A program made the translations under genes and the position numbers. Below, one piece after another: positions 1,415 to 11,192 of a stretch of DNA of 35,684 nucleotides; position 1 is the first letter of the stretch, and each line of letters starts with the position of its first letter. The notes below the pieces were generated by a model that was given only the letters and a program-made list of their open reading frames with translations, was not told the DNA's origin and did no database searches. The stretch comes from an uncultured Planctomycetales bacterium (GTDB lineage Bacteria > Planctomycetota > Planctomycetia > Isosphaerales > Isosphaeraceae), in the NCBI GenBank assembly GCA_903926465.1, contig CAIYJE010000127.1, forward strand, positions 1 through 35,684, in the 5' to 3' direction.

Positions 1415-1667
1415 TTTCTGAACGCTGGCCCATAGCACGAGGCAACATCCATCGGCCCGCCCGTCCGGCCGGGCACACACCCGCACGGTTTTTGGCGGGA
1501 AAGGGTGCCGCGCCTCCCCAGACTGACTACAATCTTGGAATCTTGGTTTCGCCAACCCGCCCACGTTCTGTGTTCAGACCTGAATTCCAGACCGGGAGTG
1601 GCACCATCAAGGCTTGGTGCTGGCTCTCGTTTTGAAACCACGGATCCATCCTCCGAAAGGATCATCA

Positions 1668-2909
1668 ATGGCCGCTCTGTCCAGACTTACCAGGACCCGA
1701 TCCAAAGCCGCGCTCCTGGCCGCCCTGCTGGCCACCGCCGCACCACTTTCTGCACGGGCCGACCTGCCCCCCGTGAAGACCGAAGTGGCCTTCCCAAACC
1801 TCAAGTTCGACCGACCGGTCGCCCTTGAAACCGCCAACGACGGCTCCAACCGACTGTTCGTGGCCGAACAGCATCAGGCCAAGGTCTGGTCGTTCGCCAA
1901 CGATCCGAACACCTCAGAGAAGACGCTGTTCCTCGACATGCAGACCGAGATCAGCCGCGATAACGAAGAAGGACTGCTGGGACTGGCGTTCCACCCCAAG
2001 TTCAAAGAGAACGGCCAGTTCTTCGTCTACTATTCCGCCAAGGAAGGACCAACCGGCCGGATGTCGGTCGTTTCCCGGTTCAAGGTCAATCCGAATAAGA
2101 CCAGCGAGGCCCTCTCGGGCTCCGAAGAACGGATCTGGACATCGGCTCCCGACCCGTTCGGCAACCATAACGGCGGCCATATCGCGTTCGGCCCCGACGG
2201 CTTCCTGTATATCACCCTGGGAGACAGTGGCGCGGGTGACGACCCACTTCAGTCTGGCCAAGATCCCTCCGACTTCTGGGGCTCGATCCTTCGCATCGAC
2301 GTTGATCACCCGGCCGACGGCAAAGCCTACGGCATCCCCAAAGACAACCCACGGCTTCGCGATACCGAGAAGTTCGCCAAATGGGCTCCCGAGGTTTACG
2401 CCATCGGCCTGCGGAACGTTTGGAAGTTCAGCTTTGACCGCAAGACCGGCACCCTCTGGGCCGGCGACGTGGGCCAGAACCTCTGGGAAGAGGTCGATAT
2501 CATCACCAACGGCGGTAACTACGGCTGGAGCGTACGCGAAGGACAGCATAACTTCCCACGCAAGCAGAAAGTTGCCGTGCGCAAAGACGAGATCATCGAG
2601 CCAATTTTTGACTACCCGCACGCCCAGTCCGATGACCGCAAGGACGACGGCAAGAGTATCACCGGAGGCTTCGTTTACCACGGCAAGTCGGCCCCCGGAC
2701 TCGAAGGGGCCTACATCTTTGGTGATTTCGACAGCGGCCGAATTTGGGGCCTGCGAGAAAAGGACGGTAAGCTGGCCGAGGTTGGTGAGATTATTGACGT
2801 TAAAGCCAACGGCAAGCTGAACATCGCCGCGTTTGGTGAAGACGCCGCCGGCGAAGTGTACGTGGTGGCCTTCAACGGCCAGATTTACAAGCTTGTGCCG
2901 GCCAAGTAA
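1668..2909 (+). CDS. Secreted PQQ-dependent sugar (glucose/sorbosone-type) dehydrogenase
   Basis: A 413-residue beta-propeller oxidoreductase of the GSDH/soluble aldose dehydrogenase family, expected to oxidise sugars in the periplasm with PQQ. Residues 1-31 form a signal peptide with a basic start, an AALLAALLATAA core and SARA before cleavage. Family signatures are EGLLGLAFHP (101-110), GNHNGGHIAFGPDGFLY (165-181, holding the probable catalytic His), YAIGLRN (244-250, the Arg-Asn PQQ ligands) and GDVGQNLWEEVDII followed by NGGNYGW (266-287). ATG 1668 is chosen because GAAAGGA precedes it by 6 bases and it starts the signal peptide; the frame is open from 1614. A strong intrinsic terminator follows. 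Substrate is not predictable. A decayed relative of its 3' end lies at 7165-7258. Confidence 0.92.
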   Translation: MAALSRLTRTRSKAALLAALLATAAPLSARADLPPVKTEVAFPNLKFDRPVALETANDGSNRLFVAEQHQAKVWSFANDPNTSEKTLFLDMQTEISRDNEEGLLGLAFHPKFKENGQFFVYYSAKEGPTGRMSVVSRFKVNPNKTSEALSGSEERIWTSAPDPFGNHNGGHIAFGPDGFLYITLGDSGAGDDPLQSGQDPSDFWGSILRIDVDHPADGKAYGIPKDNPRLRDTEKFAKWAPEVYAIGLRNVWKFSFDRKTGTLWAGDVGQNLWEEVDIITNGGNYGWSVREGQHNFPRKQKVAVRKDEIIEPIFDYPHAQSDDRKDDGKSITGGFVYHGKSAPGLEGAYIFGDFDSGRIWGLREKDGKLAEVGEIIDVKANGKLNIAAFGEDAAGEVYVVAFNGQIYKLVPAK

Positions 2910-2933
2910 ACGATTGGCTTGAGATTAATCTTG

Positions 2934-2974
2934 AAGCCCAGGTGGAGAGTCACGACTCTCTTCCTGGGCTTTTT
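2934..2974 (+). terminator. Intrinsic terminator after sugar dehydrogenase gene
   Basis: The outer arms AAGCCCAGG (2934-2942) and CCTGGGCTT (2963-2971) pair perfectly. The inner arms GAGAGT (2945-2950) and ACTCTC (2955-2960) also pair, around a CACG loop. The outer arm runs into a T tract ending at 2974. It lies 24 bases after the stop codon at 2909 and is a textbook rho-independent terminator. Confidence 0.92.
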
Positions 2975-3091
2975 GCATTTTTCGAATTTTCTTCTTGACG
3001 CAGAAACTACCACCTCTCAAATTATAAAATCCAGATACTTGGCACGTAATAAACCCTGCCGACGAATCCTGACTGTGGTGAGGAAAATCGT

Positions 3092-4156
3092 GTGTCGCTA
3101 GACATGATCCACGTTTCTCATGATCCTTGCTGCTTTGAACAGCCTGCAAAAACATATAAAAGGGGGCTTGGGTTTACTCTGATAGAGCTTCTCATCGTCA
3201 TTAGTACAATCGGCTTGATACTATCCTTCTGCATTCCGGCGGTTCAAGCAGCACGCGAAGCCAGTAGAAGAATTCAGTGCGTTAACAATCTCAAGCAACT
3301 CGCACTTGCGGCGCACAATTATCACGAAAGAGAAGGCTCGTTCCCCATGGGAACGCCTTATTATCCATTTCAGAATATCGGCTTATTCCCAGGTCACAGC
3401 ATTTTCGTGTCTCTACTCGCCGACTTGGACCAGCACGCCCTGTTCAATGGTATCAACTTTTACACATCTATCTATTCTTATTCAAACAACACTGCACAAA
3501 GCAGTGGACCAGACGTGCTTTGGTGTCCAAGTGACGCTACATGTTCACAAACTCTGATATATGACACAGCCTACCTGGATATTCCCCCAGGGCAGTTTCG
3601 CATTCGCTATACAAACTACGCCGCATGTGCCGGAACCTGGTATCATTTTTCCAACGACCTGAAGGAGACTCAAAGGTTATCAACGCAAGATAACGGGATT
3701 GCTTTTGTAAATAGCGCGATCACGATTGCCGACATCAAGGATGGAACAAGCAGTACTTTTCTCCTCGGCGAACGCCCGCATGGAAGATTAGCCGGTCAAT
3801 CTCGTCTCATCCACCACTAGTGGTTCGATGGCTACATGGATGACACGTTATTCTGGACGCTTCTTCCTATGAATTACCACACCGGCACGACAGCGTCGAC
3901 GATTCATTTAGACAGATTTTGCGCGACCGCTGGAAGCTTCCATATGAACGGGGCCAATTTTGCTTTTACCGATGGATCGGTCCGATTTATCAAGAACACA
4001 ATCCAAAGCTGGCCAATAGATCCGCGCGAGGAAATGCCTGTCGGTATCCAAGGATCGCCGAACTCGCTTTATAAACTGTCTCCAACAGCATCCATCGGGT
4101 TGTACCAGGCGCTCTCAACCAGGCGAGGAGGTGAAGTCACCAACGACAGTTTTTGA
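3092..4156 (+). pseudogene. DUF1559 prepilin-like protein, interrupted by in-frame TAG
   Basis: This encodes a type II secretion/pseudopilin-like DUF1559 protein, a large planctomycete surface family. GTG 3092 has AGGA 7 bases upstream. Residues 24-36 hold the prepilin cleavage/methylation signal [13 protein letters not shown] with Glu at mature position 5, followed by the DUF1559 block [20 protein letters not shown]. The frame stops at TAG 3818-3820 (codon 243) but continues in the same frame with WFDGYMDDTLFWTLLPMNYH and the hallmark C-terminal HMNGANFAFTDGSVRFI, ending at 4156. Family members usually have Trp-Trp at this point, so the TAG probably derives from TGG. Without readthrough the C-terminal third is lost. 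A sequencing error or amber readthrough cannot be excluded. The base composition is AT-richer than in neighbouring regions. Confidence 0.85.
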
Positions 4157-4235
4157 TTTGTAACACGTATTTTACTCCTACTCGAAAACAATTCCATTTT
4201 CGGGTTCCACACGATACTCCACGAGAGAGGATTTC

Positions 4236-4575
4236 ATGCGATTTCGTATTCTGAACGCGACATCCAAGCTGATGATCGCCTAATCGTTTGTATTCGGTGC
4301 TCTTTCGGCATCCAGTCTCGTTACTGCTGGCCCGTCGCAGGGTCCGTACCCATGCGTTTACATGAAGGCATGCACAACGAACGGTTACACAGATAATCAG
4401 TTCTTTACTTTTTGTGCCGTGCCTATCAATGCCGGTCCAGTAACTTCAGGATTCGGGGCGCAAGGCACAAAGATTTATTACGGACTGGATTTCTGTGCGG
4501 TCCAATATACTTTTTTTTGGCAATCCGACTGGTTATGGATGCGGCGATACTTACGCACACGCACCTTGCCCATGA
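4236..4575 (+). pseudogene. Small Cys-rich secreted protein, doubly broken
   Basis: ATG 4236 follows GAGAGAGG by 5 bases. It begins a signal peptide, MRFRILNATSKLMIA, that hits TAA at 4281-4283. The same frame resumes with SFVFGALSASSLVTA and a Gly/Cys-rich mature chain. After the T run at 4511-4518 the frame reads WQSDWLWMRRY, unlike the preceding residues. Dropping one T instead gives GNPTGYGCGDTYAHAPCP and a stop at 4573-4575. The reconstructed product is about 112 residues with six cysteines, suggesting disulfide bonds outside the cytoplasm. The family is not recognised. The reconstruction is inference; the in-frame TAA is seen directly. If the frame is not shifted at the T run it stays open to 4616. 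Confidence 0.6.
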
Positions 4576-4628
4576 CTACGGCCCAGAACCGGAACTCGGA
4601 CGTAAATGTTGTATAACGACCTCATCGT

Positions 4629-4653
4629 CCCTCCAGGCAGGCTACCTGGAGGG
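4629..4653. repeat. Perfect 9-bp inverted repeat (possible terminator hairpin)
   Basis: CCCTCCAGG (4629-4637) and CCTGGAGGG (4645-4653) are exact reverse complements with a 7-base loop, so RNA would fold a stable hairpin. It sits after the broken Cys-rich gene and 133 bases before the next start. No T tract follows, so terminator function is only suggested. Confidence 0.5.
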
Positions 4654-4785
4654 TCGCAACGCTGCGTTGTCCATCTCTAGCCCATCGAGTTTGATCGACA
4701 CGTCCAATACGACGATTCACCCTCACCCTCCTATCGGTCACTGTTCCGAGCAAACTCCAGATTCCTCAATCGCGGGAGAACGAAC

Positions 4786-5859
4786 GTGCGGCTCAACTCA
4801 CAGTTCTGTTTAGTCATCTACCTCCTCTTCATCAACATCCAGACTTACTCGGGCGCATCGAATCCACAGGAGAGTACACCTACCCCAAACGTTACCGCCG
4901 TGGAAATCTTCTCGCGGCTTCGTGAGTCCTTGGCGCAGCTCCATTCCCTGGAGCTCAAGTCATCGACAACGAGCAAAGCCCCGACACCCAAAGATCCGAC
5001 CGGCACGACGTCCATCCAAAACAGTTCGCACGTCTTTCTGAAGGATCAGAAATTCCTCGTCAAAATGACAACGACCAATCCCGCGCTGAACACACCGATC
5101 ACAAAGACGCTGGCATTCGAGGGCAAGGAGTACCAGACCATCGATGATAGCAAAGGCGCGCTTGTCACAGGTTCAACGATGGCGAAGGAGAACGTACAAC
5201 CGGTATACGGTTCTCCTCAACCCTTTACAATCATGTTTGATTTTGCCTACCAGTTCGCACCAAAGAAAGACTTGCCCACGTTATTTGACCCAGGCTTGTG
5301 GGAGCAAGTCGCCGGTTCCTATAAGATCACCGAGCACTCCTTGGTTGGCTCGGATCCCTGCATTGTTCTGACAATGGATTCCGATACGAACAACGCGCAT
5401 ACCGAAATATACTTGTCCGAACAATACAGTTACTACCCACTCAAGGTCGTCACCAAAAGCAATCACTTCACTCGGGAAGACACCGTTGTCGAGTACCAGG
5501 TTGTCGAACCAGGCACACGCCCGCTCATCATACCAACGCAAGTGAAAAGCACCGGAAGGCTTGTCAAAGCCGATCTACCAGTAACCTCGCAACTCACAGT
5601 AGACCCAGGTTCGATTCAATACAACAAACCTCTCAACGAGAACATGTTCACACTTTCAAAGGAGCAGGTTCCTGTTGTCATTGATATGAATACAGGCCTG
5701 GCCTATAAGGACGGCGTTCTGGTCAAGGAGAGATCCGACGCGCAACAAATCGTGACGGATCCAAGTTATTCTCTGAATACCATCCTCTGTTGGCTCTCCG
5801 CCCTCTTGTTAATCGTGGGCATAAGCATCAAGGTTTTCCTATCAAGAAGCGGCCGATAG
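4786..5859 (+). CDS. Secreted, C-terminally membrane-anchored protein of unknown function
   Basis: A 357-residue protein not assigned to a named family. GTG 4786 is preceded by GGGAGAA at suitable spacing. Residues 1-24 form a signal peptide (hydrophobic LVIYLLFI core). The mature part begins with a Thr/Ser/Pro-rich stretch, then a mainly beta region (about 75-300) with patterns such as KFLVKM, EIYLSEQYSYYPLKVV and TVVEYQVV. These recall the LolA/LolB-like fold of planctomycete outer-membrane lipoprotein-sorting-like proteins, but that is a weak inference. Residues about 330-352 (LNTILCWLSALLLIVGISI) form one transmembrane helix followed by a short basic tail. It lies inside the AT-richer island between two broken genes and the DUF1573 gene, so it may belong to the same surface-protein cassette. 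Its own frame is intact. Confidence 0.75.
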   Translation: MRLNSQFCLVIYLLFINIQTYSGASNPQESTPTPNVTAVEIFSRLRESLAQLHSLELKSSTTSKAPTPKDPTGTTSIQNSSHVFLKDQKFLVKMTTTNPALNTPITKTLAFEGKEYQTIDDSKGALVTGSTMAKENVQPVYGSPQPFTIMFDFAYQFAPKKDLPTLFDPGLWEQVAGSYKITEHSLVGSDPCIVLTMDSDTNNAHTEIYLSEQYSYYPLKVVTKSNHFTREDTVVEYQVVEPGTRPLIIPTQVKSTGRLVKADLPVTSQLTVDPGSIQYNKPLNENMFTLSKEQVPVVIDMNTGLAYKDGVLVKERSDAQQIVTDPSYSLNTILCWLSALLLIVGISIKVFLSRSGR

Positions 5860-5919
5860 AGCCGTCGCTGCAACCTCGGAAAACCTGCCTATCCCAGTAA
5901 TCCTGGATTGGTCCGTACG

Positions 5920-6069
5920 ATAGCGGTTCACGTTTCGATTGCACACGGTAGTCAAGATTCCCCGAGGGGCTGTTTTTCTGGTGCGGGCCTCTGGCCTACA
6001 ATCCGGCTTCTCCGGGCAGGCAGGACGCCAGCACCACAATTTGTATGCCATGCGAACGTGAACCGCTAT
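5920..6069. repeat. 15-bp inverted repeats bounding a 150-bp segment (MITE-like)
   Basis: ATAGCGGTTCACGTT (5920-5934) is the exact reverse complement of AACGTGAACCGCTAT (6055-6069). The 120 bases between them show no gene. The arrangement occupies the gap between the unknown membrane protein and the DUF1573 gene. It could be a miniature inverted-repeat element, a paired operator, or an RNA stem. No clear target-site duplication was seen. Confidence 0.45.
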
Positions 6070-6152
6070 AAACGCTCACGCCCAGGATACAACCGGGAGC
6101 GGTTCTTCTACGTACACAACTCAATCCTGAACGTCAGAGTGAGGCGTCATCC

Positions 6153-7142
6153 ATGCGGATTCTTGCCGTACTATTACTCATGGCGGTAACCGCGATGTTC
6201 TACGTCGGGTTCATATCTTATTCTGGCCCGAGCAACACGCCAACGCTCAACGGCCATGATTTCGGTGATGTTCTACCCAATCAAGAATTGACGCACACGT
6301 TCACTCTCAAGCGACGATGGTTCAGACGGACCAACATCACCCGAGTTACTCCTTCTTGCGGATGCCTCATCACCGTGTTGCACCCAACCAACTGGGGATG
6401 GCTTCTGAAAGTAGGTTTACGCACTGACATGGTTGTTGGTAAGAAATCGGTCTCGGTATTGGTGGAAACAGACGACCCATCCCGGCCGCGGTATCGATTT
6501 GAGTTGGAATGCAGCGTCACAAATCCCGTGTCGGTCACGCCTTTACCCATCGATTTTGGCGTCATTGATTCCAGCACGGAATTTGCAAAGAGCCTGCCTT
6601 TGACCGTCAAGAATAACACCCCGCGTTTACCAACCATGGAGATCATCGACCCCACGGAACCCTCACCCGTAACCATCCGCGATACAAACCTGGATTCGGT
6701 GTTCTCCTTGAGCCTTCAGACACCAATGATTCTTGGCCCCATCAGCGCCAAGCTCCGGATTTTCTACAACGATGCTCGCTCTGGATTTCAGGACATACCA
6801 ATTCGAGGTGTGATCATGGGTCCGATCCAGGCGACCCCGTTTGAAATTCGAGCGATTTGGAATTCCACTCAAGAGCCCTTTACCGCGGCAACGGTGGTGT
6901 CTCGGTCAAACCCAGAAATCGGTTTGGGCATGCATGTTGATTCGCTTCAGGGAGACTTATCGAACCCCGACGATCTGGAGGTTAACCTCATCGACATGGG
7001 CGATGCGGCACGGTTGGAAATCAAACTGAAGCCAGGCAACCGATGGACGAAAGGGACACAATGCCGTGGCTCGGTCCTGCTTGTTTCGAGTGAAGGCTTG
7101 AGAATCGTCATTCCTGTCAACATCACGGTTGCCCCGTTCTAG
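6153..7142 (+). CDS. DUF1573 domain protein, membrane-anchored
   Basis: A 329-residue protein with an N-terminal hydrophobic anchor or signal (residues 1-20, MRILAVLLLMAVTAMFYVGF). The DUF1573 signature follows: HDFGDVLPNQELTHTFTLKR leads to ITRVTPSCGCLITVL, with the Cys-Gly-Cys pair typical of the family, then SVLVETDDPSRPRYRFELEC. A second repeat-like segment (TPLPIDFGVIDSSTEFAKSL) suggests at least two Ig-like beta domains. ATG 6153 has GTGAGG at normal spacing. The biochemical role of DUF1573 is unknown; in Planctomycetes such proteins are exported and often lie near DUF1559 genes, as here. It is the last gene of the AT-richer island and appears intact. Confidence 0.85.
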   Translation: MRILAVLLLMAVTAMFYVGFISYSGPSNTPTLNGHDFGDVLPNQELTHTFTLKRRWFRRTNITRVTPSCGCLITVLHPTNWGWLLKVGLRTDMVVGKKSVSVLVETDDPSRPRYRFELECSVTNPVSVTPLPIDFGVIDSSTEFAKSLPLTVKNNTPRLPTMEIIDPTEPSPVTIRDTNLDSVFSLSLQTPMILGPISAKLRIFYNDARSGFQDIPIRGVIMGPIQATPFEIRAIWNSTQEPFTAATVVSRSNPEIGLGMHVDSLQGDLSNPDDLEVNLIDMGDAARLEIKLKPGNRWTKGTQCRGSVLLVSSEGLRIVIPVNITVAPF

Positions 7143-7164
7143 TGATGCCCGCCCCCTTTACCCC

Positions 7165-7258
7165 TTCGATGATCATCTTCGCGAGAAGGGCAGCAAGCTT
7201 ACCAAGGCGGAACATCGACGCCTTCGGTGAAGACGCCGCCGGCGGAGTCATGAACGGG
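7165..7258 (+). pseudogene. Relic of a sugar-dehydrogenase 3' end
   Basis: Conceptual translation gives FDDHLREKGSKLTK from 7165, then after a frame change NIDAFGEDAAGGVMNG from 7211. The intact dehydrogenase upstream reads GLREKDGKL and LNIAAFGEDAAGEVYVVAFNG in its last 50 residues. The DNA shares GGTGAAGACGCCGCCGGCG (7226-7244 against 2835-2853). About 36 bases of the intact gene are missing between the two blocks, and the first block differs largely at third codon positions. That points to a diverged paralogue rather than a fresh copy. Only about 90 bases are recognisable. Confidence 0.6.
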
Positions 7259-7416
7259 ATGGGCCAAAGAAAAGGGAAAGACTCACACCTGAGGACAGTC
7301 TGAACCGCTTTCCCTTTCCCGGGAAGCGTTCAGCCACTAAACTGGAGGGAACTTCCGTCAGAGCCGGCTGCCGTTCCCTGGCCGGTCCCCTTTGAATCTC
7401 AGACCGGTGGCTCCCC

Positions 7417-8991
7417 ATGCCGTCCTCCCTCGACCATTCCCCGGCAATTTTGTTGAGCCTGGGCGATTCCGTGGCCGTGGCCGCCAGGCCCATTCCCAAG
7501 GGGGCCCGAATTGTTGTGGGTGGGAACACCCTGGAGGTCCTGGAACCAATCGGGCTGGGACACAAAGTCGCCGTCGTCAAGATTGCCACCGGTACCCCTG
7601 TGCGGAAATATGGCCAGGTGATTGGCTTCGCCAAAAACGACATTGCACCAGGAGCCTGGGTCCACTCGCACAACCTCAAGGCCGACCTGTTTGAACGGGA
7701 CTATGCCCACGCCAGCGAACCAGGCCCCGTGTTTCCCATGGGTACCCCACGCACGTTCCAGGGGTACCTGCGCCCAGACGGCCGGGTGGGCACCCGGAAC
7801 ATGATCGCCGTGATCAGCACGGTGAACTGCTCGGCAAGCACCGCCCGGCTGATCTCTGATCGCTTCCGCGATGGAGCCTGGAAAGCCCAGTTCCCGAACG
7901 TCGATGGCGTGTTCGCCATCACCCACAAAGGGGGCTGCGGATTCCCATTCGAAGGGCCAGATTTCAAGGTGCTGGAACGAGTTCTGGCGGGGTTCGCTCG
8001 GCACCCCAACGTGGCGGCGTACGTGATTGTGGGCCTGGGCTGTGAAGGGGTGTACGCCTCTCACCTGGTCGAAACCCAGGACCTGGTCCCCCTGGGGGCC
8101 GCCAAGGGAAACGCCGGCGGCCAGCCAACCGCACACCGGCCAACCGTGCTCAATATTCAGGACCAGGGCGGGATCACCCGCACGGTGGACGCAGCCGTTC
8201 AGGCCGTGCTGGACCTGATGCCGGTGGCCAACTCCTGGACGCGAACCGAACAGCCGGCCTCCAAGTTGTGCGTGGGCCTGGAATGCGGTGGGTCAGACGG
8301 TAACTCGGGCGTGACCGCCAATCCGGCCGTGGGAGTGGCGTCTGACCTGATCATTGCCCAGGGTGGCACCACAATTCTGGGTGAAACCACCGAGATCTAC
8401 GGCGGTGAACACCTGCTGACCAGACGCGCGGTGCGGCCCGAGGTGGGAGAGCGACTGATTGAAAAGATTCGCTGGTGGGAATGGTATTCGGGCGTCTTTG
8501 GCGCGGTGATTGACAATAATCCCTCGCCCGGAAACAAAGCCGGTGGCCTGACCACCATTTATGAGAAAAGCCTGGGAGCGCTTGCCAAAGGGGGCAAGAG
8601 TTCGCTGGCAGCCGTGATCGATTATGCAGACCGGGCCGACATGCCCGGGCTAGTCTTCATGGATACGCCCGGTTACGACCCCACTTGCACCACCGGCCTG
8701 GTGGCCGGCGGGGCCAACATCATGGTGTTTACCACCGGCCGGGGCAGCGTGCTCGGGCTCAAGCCCACCCCCTGCATCAAGGTTACCACCAATACCCCGC
8801 TCTACAACCGGATGAAGGACGACATGGATCTGGACGCCGGCACGATTCTCGAAGGAGAGTCGGTCGATTCCGTGGGCCACCGGCTGCTCGACATGATTTT
8901 GGATGTTGCCAGTGGCGCTCCCACCAAAAGCGAACGAGCCGGCGTGGGTGAAGAAGAGTTCGACCCCTGGCAGGTTGGGCCAAGGCTGTGA
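7417..8991 (+). CDS. uxaA: Altronate dehydratase (UxaA family)
   Basis: A 524-residue cytoplasmic dehydratase of the UxaA/GarD family, which converts altronate to 2-keto-3-deoxygluconate in hexuronate breakdown. Residues about 10-90 form the SAF-type N-terminal domain (LSLGDSVAVAARPIPKGARI, then IGFAKNDIAPGAWVHSHNL). The main catalytic domain begins with GYLRPDGRVGTRNMIAVISTVNCSAS and continues with THKGGCGF, GLGCEG, ECGGSDGNSGVTANPAVGVASD and DNNPSPGNKAGG. Length fits a full two-domain UxaA (about 500 residues). Galactarate dehydratase is an alternative within the same superfamily. Its stop overlaps the GTG of the next gene, so it heads a coupled unit with a glycosyltransferase, an unusual partner. 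Start ATG 7417 lacks a strong ribosome site, but no better one is visible. Confidence 0.88.
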   Translation: MPSSLDHSPAILLSLGDSVAVAARPIPKGARIVVGGNTLEVLEPIGLGHKVAVVKIATGTPVRKYGQVIGFAKNDIAPGAWVHSHNLKADLFERDYAHASEPGPVFPMGTPRTFQGYLRPDGRVGTRNMIAVISTVNCSASTARLISDRFRDGAWKAQFPNVDGVFAITHKGGCGFPFEGPDFKVLERVLAGFARHPNVAAYVIVGLGCEGVYASHLVETQDLVPLGAAKGNAGGQPTAHRPTVLNIQDQGGITRTVDAAVQAVLDLMPVANSWTRTEQPASKLCVGLECGGSDGNSGVTANPAVGVASDLIIAQGGTTILGETTEIYGGEHLLTRRAVRPEVGERLIEKIRWWEWYSGVFGAVIDNNPSPGNKAGGLTTIYEKSLGALAKGGKSSLAAVIDYADRADMPGLVFMDTPGYDPTCTTGLVAGGANIMVFTTGRGSVLGLKPTPCIKVTTNTPLYNRMKDDMDLDAGTILEGESVDSVGHRLLDMILDVASGAPTKSERAGVGEEEFDPWQVGPRL

Positions 8992-11192
8992 GCGTCGCCA
9001 ACCCGGCAGCAAGCCGTTCCCCTCGCTGGTTCGCTGTCGCGCTGGCGGCCTTGATTGTGGCCGAACTGCTCTGGTTTTTCTGGTTCACCACCACCCCCCT
9101 GCCTAACGCCGGCAACCTCCAGGTTCCCAGCGCACCCGGCGAAACCCGCACCGAGGCGGTCAGGCGGTGGTACCTGCTCGCCCTGGCGTTTCCCCAGTTC
9201 ATCCCCGGTACCTCCTGGCACAAGTCGCTGTTCGGCCATGCCATCGATGCCTTCTGCCAGACCGCCTATCTGGACCAGCGCATCCCGTTACTGGGTGCCG
9301 GGCTGCTGATCGCCGGTGCCGGGCTCGGACTCGGCCTGCTGCTCATCCGCCTGCTCGGTGCCAGTCGGTGGTTGAACGGCCCAGAGCGGTTCACTCTCGG
9401 ATTCGGCATTGGCCTGAACGCGCTGGCATCACTCACACTGCTGGCCGGTCGGCTCGGCCTGCTCTCTCCCTGGCCGGTTCGAACCGCGCTGGGCGTGCTG
9501 GCCATGGCTGGGCTGGCAAGTGAGTTCTGGGCTCGCAAGAAGCCCTTGCAGGCTCCTCCTTGGATTTTTTTGAGCCGGGCTCAAACCGGCCTGCTCCTGC
9601 TGGCCACGGCGCCGTTTCTATGGATGATGATCCTGGGTTCGTTCCAGCCATCGCTCGACTTTGATGCGTTAGAATATCATCTGCAAGGCCCCAAGGAATG
9701 GTTTCTCCAGGGGAGGATCTCGTTTCTGGCGCACAATGTTTACACGTCCATGCCGTTCAGTATCGAAATGCTTCACCTGCTGGGCATGGAAGTTCTGAAC
9801 GACTGGTGGCACGGGGCGCTGGTCGGGCAGTTCGTGATCATGTTGCACGCCCCCATGGCGGCCCTGGCCTTATTACTGGTAGGCAACCGGATCGGGGCGA
9901 CCCGCGTGGGGCTGGTCTCGGCGCTCGTCTACCTTTCCACCCCCTGGATCTACCGACTCAGCGTTTTTGCCTATGTGGAAGGGCCGCTTGGTTATTATCA
10001 CGCCGCGCTGCTGCTTGCCGCCGAACGGGCCTGGACTCTGTCTCGGCAACCGCTCGCGGAGTCACGCGATCAGGCGGTTGCGGCAAGGCCCCAGAACCAA
10101 CCCCTGGCGGCTGGCATGCGTCAGGAAACCCTGGGACTTTGGGCGATTGTCGGCTGGCTTGCGGGTGGAGCCATGGCGTGCAAGTATCCGGCGCTCATCT
10201 CGGCCGCGGTACCCATGGTGCTGGTGGCAGGCGTGGCAGCCGTCAGGGAGAAACGCGCGGGAATTTTGCTGGCGGTTGTTGCCGGCATGGCGGTGGGAAT
10301 TGGCCCCTGGCTGATCAAGAACGCCATCGACCACGGCAACCCGGTTTATCCGCTGGGAGACTCGCTGTTTCACGGCCACCCCTGGACCCCAGAGCGAGAG
10401 GCGCAGTGGAAACGGGCGCATGGGCCTCGCAAGATCGGACTGCCGGAACTGGTCAGCAGCACGCTTGAGGTTGCGGGCAAGAATGACTGGCAGTCTCCGC
10501 TCTATCTAGCACTGGCCCCGCTGGCATTCTGCTGTGTTCGGCAACGCAGAGTGGCGGTACTTCTCGCCTTGTTTTGCCTGTACATCTTTGCAACCTGGTG
10601 GTTGTTCACGCACCGGCTCGACCGGTTCTGGCTTCCGTTGCTGCCTGCGCTGGCCTTGCTGGCCGGCCTGGGGGCAAACTGGACCAACCGGCCAGGCTGG
10701 ACCCCGGTGCTCTGCACCATTCTGGGGCTCGGGCTGTTCATGAATCTGGTCTTTGATTCCTCGGAACTGGCGGCACTGAGCGAGTGGACCGATGACCTTC
10801 ATGCGATGCGGCGGAATATTCCGGCTCTGGCCAACCCGGGTCTGGCCTGGCTCGACCGTGCCCTGCCTGAGAACAGCCGGACCCTGCTGGTCGGACCGGC
10901 AGGCGTCTTCCACATGGAGCATGCCATCCTTTACAACACGGTGTTTGATGATGATCGGCTGGAGGCCCTGGCCGCCAATCGCATGCCCCTGGAAATTCGA
11001 GACGCGTTGAAGAGCCAGGGGATTACCCATCTGTTTGTGGACTGGTCAGAGATCCACCGCCATCGAAAGCCCGGGGGTTATGGATTCACCGGGTTTGAAC
11101 AACCGCAACTGTTCGCAAGCTGGGTCAAAGCCGGTATCCTGACCCCCATCTCCGTACCGGTTCCCAACAAAGACCTTTACGAAATTAAGTGA
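8988..11192 (+). CDS. Polytopic GT-C/GT39-like glycosyltransferase
   Basis: A 734-residue membrane protein with about ten or more hydrophobic helices (for example 14-33, 99-121, 137-155, 200-217, and several between 270 and 610). In the loop after the helix ending near 217 it carries SLDFDALEYHLQGPKEW (Asp224, Asp226, Glu229, His231). This resembles the acidic catalytic loop of lipid-linked-sugar-using GT-C enzymes (ArnT/PMT/GT39). A soluble C-terminal tail (about 600-734) follows the last helix. It probably transfers a sugar from a polyprenyl-phosphate donor outside the cytoplasmic membrane; the acceptor is unknown. GTG 8988 overlaps the uxaA stop (GTGA), and its own stop overlaps an alternative GTG of the following epimerase, so the three genes appear translationally coupled. 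Confidence 0.78.
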   Translation: MSVANPAASRSPRWFAVALAALIVAELLWFFWFTTTPLPNAGNLQVPSAPGETRTEAVRRWYLLALAFPQFIPGTSWHKSLFGHAIDAFCQTAYLDQRIPLLGAGLLIAGAGLGLGLLLIRLLGASRWLNGPERFTLGFGIGLNALASLTLLAGRLGLLSPWPVRTALGVLAMAGLASEFWARKKPLQAPPWIFLSRAQTGLLLLATAPFLWMMILGSFQPSLDFDALEYHLQGPKEWFLQGRISFLAHNVYTSMPFSIEMLHLLGMEVLNDWWHGALVGQFVIMLHAPMAALALLLVGNRIGATRVGLVSALVYLSTPWIYRLSVFAYVEGPLGYYHAALLLAAERAWTLSRQPLAESRDQAVAARPQNQPLAAGMRQETLGLWAIVGWLAGGAMACKYPALISAAVPMVLVAGVAAVREKRAGILLAVVAGMAVGIGPWLIKNAIDHGNPVYPLGDSLFHGHPWTPEREAQWKRAHGPRKIGLPELVSSTLEVAGKNDWQSPLYLALAPLAFCCVRQRRVAVLLALFCLYIFATWWLFTHRLDRFWLPLLPALALLAGLGANWTNRPGWTPVLCTILGLGLFMNLVFDSSELAALSEWTDDLHAMRRNIPALANPGLAWLDRALPENSRTLLVGPAGVFHMEHAILYNTVFDDDRLEALAANRMPLEIRDALKSQGITHLFVDWSEIHRHRKPGGYGFTGFEQPQLFASWVKAGILTPISVPVPNKDLYEIK

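Follow-up and report, generated by a model that had tools for sequence, protein, structure and literature searches.

Proteins with a DUF1559 domain, of which a planctomycete genome encodes dozens, form a very large family without a settled function. In Planctopirus limnophila, they have been reported as the largest paralogue group, with 68 copies, two of which are essential (PMC10632474). In Tuwongella, 91 proteins have been described which combine a prepilin motif and a DUF1559 domain, their genes being often flanked by signal-peptide genes (PMC8567305), and in Rhodopirellula, nine of the 74 genes with this domain have been reported to be up-regulated early in cold and salt shock (PMC2754498). 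The latter report reads DUF1559 proteins as solute-binding, which differs from the pilin-like reading. DUF1559 genes have also been reported as common to two Isosphaeraceae plasmids (PMC5352709). Our literature search returned no paper on DUF1559 together with DUF1573, nor on DUF1573 with planctomycetes. Here, we describe an AT-richer block of about 4.2 kb which holds a broken DUF1559 gene next to a DUF1573-type gene, in the draft genome of an uncultured Isosphaeraceae bacterium (GCA_903926465.1, here G000; 6.89 Mb, 207 contigs). The window, i.e., the whole stretch of DNA analyzed, is one entire contig of this genome (CAIYJE010000127.1, here C127; 35,684 nt). Collectively, the data make it probable that this block was inserted between two ancestral neighbours, a glucose/sorbosone dehydrogenase gene (GSDH) and a galactarate/altronate dehydratase-like gene (garD), and that a second GSDH end decayed in the slot before garD. 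The features at the borders of the block are as follows:

1668..2909, plus strand: intact GSDH, left flank (PF07995, E 1.5e-42)
2934..2971, plus strand: terminator-like hairpin (18-nt arms, 89% complementary) followed by a short T run, 3' of GSDH and near the left edge of the block
7207..7248, plus strand: relic of a GSDH 3' end (37 of 42 positions identical to 2816-2857)
7417..8991, plus strand: garD, right flank (PF20629, E 3.4e-98)

The first line of evidence is an empty site in family genomes outside the genus of the window. In G011, G013, G014, G020 and G425, which span four genera, a GSDH is located at most 1.5 kb upstream of garD and the block is absent, with about 129, 112 and 131 nt from the GSDH stop to the garD start in G011, G013 and G425, respectively. 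Among these genomes, G011 is the nearest relative of the window by both flanking genes: in trees of 17 sequences, in which many inner branches are unresolved, garD groups with G011 with a support of 98/97 and GSDH with a support of 98/95. Since both trees place the window with G011, the intact GSDH is probably native. In a separate comparison, it shares 69% identity with G011 and 66% with G009. Upstream synteny proved uninformative, as the gene upstream of GSDH in G011 is not beside GSDH in the other loci tested. The surroundings of garD were compared in 33 other loci, each standing for one of the 42 other family genomes in which garD was matched, nine of these genomes being left out. In the window, a gene encoding a 734-aa protein comes next after garD (7417-11192 for the pair), and a relative of this second gene lies beside garD in 29 of these 33 loci.

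The block is also distinguished from its host region by its composition. A two-breakpoint fit (search range 1500-11000, 20-nt grid, log-likelihood gain 91.7) places its edges at 2880 and 7120, with a GC content of 0.502 within and 0.609 outside. Likewise, the GC content of 2975-7142 is 0.504, as compared with a mean of 0.613 (standard deviation 0.011, minimum 0.583) for the 242 overlapping 4.2-kb stretches taken right of the block, from 7300 and with a step of 100. The original prediction, made from the letters alone, had singled out 2975-7164 as visibly lower in GC than its surroundings. Its example, 26 G+C of 60 at 3361-3420, is exact, and its observation as a whole proved correct in nearly every detail. 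Codon adaptation to the genes of the window follows the same trend, with low values for all three scored block genes, two of which are intact (0.403, 0.485 and 0.472), versus 0.552-0.721 in 11 of the 18 other open reading frames of at least 150 aa, seven minus-strand, short or overlapping frames being left out. The separation is less clean for the GC content at third codon positions, where the top value of the block pieces (0.483, 0.557, 0.627 and 0.605) touches the bottom value of the 18 other frames (0.626-0.796). The low GC content of the block is not a DUF1559 trait, because the match GC of its DUF1559 gene is 0.476 versus 0.545-0.635 in 28 other DUF1559 loci from the same genome (30 loci were taken, one being the window itself and one, cut by a contig end, having no value).

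The third line of evidence is the relic. As had been predicted, an intact dehydrogenase 3' end lies left of the block and a decayed, related one lies on its right, just beyond the edge (7164) of the stretch first described. This 42-nt match is unique, as no other 42-nt stretch of the window, on either strand, scores 33 or more against GSDH. A weaker piece, which may begin at 7177, suggests a longer decayed stretch: 7177-7200 translates as LREKGSKL, as compared with LREKDGKL in GSDH (six of eight residues, aligned by eye). Measured from a conserved GSDH codon, the distance to garD is 171 nt for the relic and 183, 185 and 166 nt for the living genes of G011, G425 and G013, respectively, the corresponding distances in G014 and G020 being 463 and 1022 nt. 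The relic thus lies where a GSDH end belongs, with a spacing to garD like that of the close-packed relatives.

Four genes and one repeat were delineated within the block:

3092..4156, plus strand: DUF1559 pilin-like gene, broken by a TAG at 3818, with an H-X9-DG tail in 3836-4153
4236..4616, plus strand: small cysteine-containing secreted-type gene, as read from its sequence, broken by a TAA at 4281 in the signal sequence
4786..5859, plus strand: intact orphan LolA-like gene, with an N-terminal signal, a long soluble part and a C-terminal membrane helix
5920..6069, no strand assigned: 150-nt dispersed inverted-repeat element with 27-nt arms, member of a G000 repeat family
6153..7142, plus strand: intact DUF1573-type gene (PF07610, E 4.4e-5, 23.9 bits, below the cut-off of 26.1)

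This content agrees with the one first proposed (DUF1559, cysteine-rich, unknown and DUF1573 genes, two of them broken), although the DUF1573 match stays below its cut-off. The DUF1559 gene matches PF07596 (E 1.6e-31, 110.8 bits versus a cut-off of 23.3) and its H-X9-DG tail matches TIGR04294 (35.7 bits versus 19), its prepilin-type N-terminus being just below the cut-offs (N_methyl, 21.0 versus 21.2 bits; TIGR02532, 15.7 versus 16.3 bits). The small cysteine gene is probably also frameshifted at a T run (4511-4518). An 80-aa piece of it (4284-4523) contains four cysteine residues and has no match outside G000 among 391 other genomes of the phylum. The stops and the frameshift could be assembly errors of the draft genome. 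For 4786..5859, the "LolA-like" label reflects size and layout and not a family match, the protein having no Pfam or NCBIfam match and its single-sequence structure model (mean predicted local distance difference test score of 40.5) being too poor for a fold search. This gene has no match in the 39 nearest relatives, in 391 other phylum genomes (two overlapping sets) or in plasmids, and no sister genome was thus found to keep the cassette without the relic, a finding which would have spoken against an insertion. Scans of genome and viral contigs with short exact patterns, which reach close relatives only, were also negative.

The repeat at 5920-6069, which resembles a miniature inverted-repeat transposable element (MITE) or a repetitive extragenic palindromic doublet forming a hairpin (REPIN), has further copies on contigs C116, C6, C184 and elsewhere in the genome, with inverted ends of 22-27 nt. 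Its half-sites have 78 genome matches at up to three mismatches versus none for a reversed control, several of them being paired, 68 or 124 nt apart. With a narrower pattern, the repeat was hit three times across 323 kb of G000 loci but not across 105 kb from G012 or 71 kb from other family loci, a small sample which is not informative on the presence of the repeat in relatives.

The closest counterparts of the block genes were found in G012, a family member of another genus. The block DUF1559 protein shares up to 51% identity with G012 proteins and 38-45% with paralogues from its own genome, in a search where seven candidates were scored per genome and G012 was the sole other family member in the sample. 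In a tree with 47 rows (a short one dropped, several branches long), it groups with G012 L249, L250 and L251 (100/94) but not with any of the 36 sampled G000 paralogues. The top raw identity in this run reached 56%, over only 50 columns, and was to a fragmentary row from G000. Around these G012 genes, the neighbours are recurrent. L249 (contig C18, 5544-9555) contains successive genes on one strand for DUF1559, MauE, a C39 peptidase-rhodanese fusion and a LolA-like protein, L250 has a LolA-like gene near DUF1559, and L251 combines a small 10-cysteine protein, DUF1573 (42.6 bits versus a cut-off of 26.1) and DUF1559. In L254 (contig C20, 653-5064), a same-strand row looking like one operon comprises genes for a DUF1573-type protein (19.6 bits, below the cut-off of 26.1), DUF1559, a small 9-cysteine secreted-type protein, a LolA-like protein and a C39 peptidase. 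DUF1559, small cysteine, LolA-like and DUF1573-type genes are thus found together in the window and in L254, two of the four being recognized by layout only. The DUF1573-type protein of the window shares 32% identity over 103 aa with its L254 counterpart (E 2e-10) and has no BLASTP match to that of L251 (E 4.6).

Partner genes are present in four of the eight DUF1559 regions fetched from G012, which is not an unbiased rate because these regions had been selected for their high DUF1559 or DUF1573 scores; the LolA-like seeds were taken from the same loci by eye. In the genome of the window, a LolA-like neighbour occurs in one of 32 other fetched DUF1559 regions (L274), its protein being akin to the LolA-like protein of L254 (E 3e-18), and DUF1573 occurs in none. 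The DUF1559 protein of L254 groups with that of L274 at 100/86. By phmmer, none of 20 DUF1573 loci elsewhere has a nearby DUF1559 gene, the pairing being seen only in G012 and in the window. Near the DUF1573 gene of L306, weak C39 and MauE matches were noted. The gene set is missing from two Isosphaeraceae plasmids which have DUF1559 hits. Four neighbouring and mutually close DUF1559 genes are present in L276 (G000 contig C37, 4512-10409) and two in L278 (G000 contig C112, 4909-7823), groups which, from their short end branches in the tree, are perhaps recent amplifications.

Since relatives possess GSDH and garD without the block and the relic sits at the ancestral spacing, an insertion is the most likely origin of the block, and the relic most probably represents the end of a second GSDH. 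In this Isosphaeraceae lineage, about 4.2 kb of AT-richer DNA would have entered between GSDH and garD, possibly as a transferred copy of a family envelope-gene set, either by recombination at GSDH, doubling this gene, or between copies which were already doubled. The second GSDH end before garD would then have decayed to some 40-75 recognizable nucleotides. The original prediction had proposed an insertion next to or between tandem dehydrogenase paralogues, followed by the loss of one of them. The insertion beside GSDH, backed by five empty-site genomes and an atypical composition, and the second GSDH end are both supported, but the ancestral tandem is not. Sister genomes with tandem dehydrogenases and no cassette had been named as support for an insertion, and no tandem GSDH pair was found in 20 family genomes (own included; many of these assemblies are fragmented): the two matches which come closest to each other on a single contig, in G020, are separated by about 49 kb. 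Therefore, the duplication either arose in this lineage alone, as far as these genomes show, or resulted from the integration itself.

Two courses of events, both of which fall within this insertion, have to be considered. In the first, which is a serious but still tentative proposal, DNA carrying a GSDH-like arm, whether circular or linear, would have recombined in a single step with the resident GSDH, leaving a whole copy on one side of the incoming DNA and a partial one on the other. One such event would account for the block, its flanking repeats and its position, with the relic in the ancestral slot. Compared with five relatives, the intact GSDH shows no donor-recipient mosaicism along its length, which is unhelpful to this proposal without excluding it, and no plasmid or phage gene was found among the block proteins scanned. 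The second course, proposed originally and to be regarded as possible, starts with a tandem GSDH duplication, the block being inserted between the copies and the garD-proximal copy decaying afterwards. Of the 17 differences between the relic and the intact GSDH over 25 codons, nine are at third positions, in line with two copies that were formerly coding. This excess is weak, and the hand-aligned piece 7177-7209, unsupported above background by gapped alignment, contributes 11 of the 25 codons; the lack of any tandem pair in the family genomes also argues against this course. On this evidence, the two courses carry nearly equal weight.

Alternatively, the block might be old native DNA which was lost in G011 and other genomes, its low GC content resulting from relaxed selection in a dying gene set. 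The two broken genes and the entry of the genome's own repeat are consistent with such a history, but five genomes in four genera have GSDH and garD without the block, its intact genes are also low in codon adaptation and its edges are sharp, all of which makes this alternative unlikely. It is very unlikely that the 42-nt match reflects chance or a shared protein motif and never belonged to a second GSDH, for although a loose gapped alignment of the whole relic area is at background level (exceeded in score by one of 265 other 200-mers), the ungapped core has no equal in the window and sits at the ancestral spacing.

Several observations weigh against the insertion of a transferred gene set. 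The adjacency of GSDH and garD was found in only five of the 33 other garD loci, four of which are cut off within 700 nt upstream, and the relatives compared are all from other genera than that of the window. In the GSDH tree run, the top raw identity was to G009 (68% over 380 columns) and not to G011. The Pfam scan of block proteins revealed no transposase or integrase, and there is no tRNA in the window and no Rfam match in 2800-7500. At the edges, no repeat of at least 14 nt was found except the GSDH end, and none was inverted, shorter target duplications not having been looked for. In addition, the block is not a fresh arrival, because the repeat at 5920-6069 belongs to a genome-wide family, and no donor can be named, since the DUF1559 search included no further family member besides G012. 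Of the four proteins encoded by the block, only DUF1559 and DUF1573 show a sequence relationship to G012 proteins; those of LolA-like and cysteine type, which are not alignable, resemble their G012 counterparts by size, order and layout only. A mobile-element origin was considered and rejected on the lack of a tRNA, of an Rfam match, of a transposase or integrase among the block proteins scanned, and of an edge inverted repeat of at least 14 nt.

Concerning function, the adjacency of prepilin-type, C39, MauE, DUF1573 and membrane-anchored LolA-like genes to a gene for a small cysteine-rich secreted protein suggests a role in the export and maturation of the latter. A working set would plausibly export, process and fold a small cysteine-rich surface protein. 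Since two genes are broken and the Pfam scan of block proteins gave no C39 peptidase, a component of L249 and L254, the set of the window is probably dead or dying. A more speculative and rather doubtful extension is that an undescribed, mobile and fast-evolving Isosphaeraceae set (pilin-like DUF1559, C39, MauE-type redox and DUF1573 proteins and a LolA-like anchor) exports and matures a small, copy-variable cysteine-rich surface peptide, and that the block is a dying copy of it; if this were true, one branch of the large and unexplained DUF1559 family would gain a concrete partner set. The insertion itself is an ordinary genome change, though an unusually readable one, since the flanks look native, relatives have an empty site and a scrap of a gene is left at the ancestral spacing. 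The lead is the gene set recurring around one DUF1559 branch.

Compared with known systems, the block resembles small genomic islands in its atypical composition, its sharp edges and its absence at the same site in relatives. Unlike them, no mobility gene or tRNA was found in it, and its sole edge repeat is the gene end of its left neighbour. With the G012 DUF1559 neighbourhoods (L249, L250, L251 and L254), it shares the same kinds of genes side by side, but the gene order of the window differs and C39 and MauE are absent from it. Finally, with the planctomycete DUF1559 (SBP_bac_10) family, the block gene shares the domain and an H-X9-DG tail, both over the cut-off, its prepilin-type start scoring just under it; this copy is broken and closer to three G012 copies than to the 36 sampled paralogues of its own genome.

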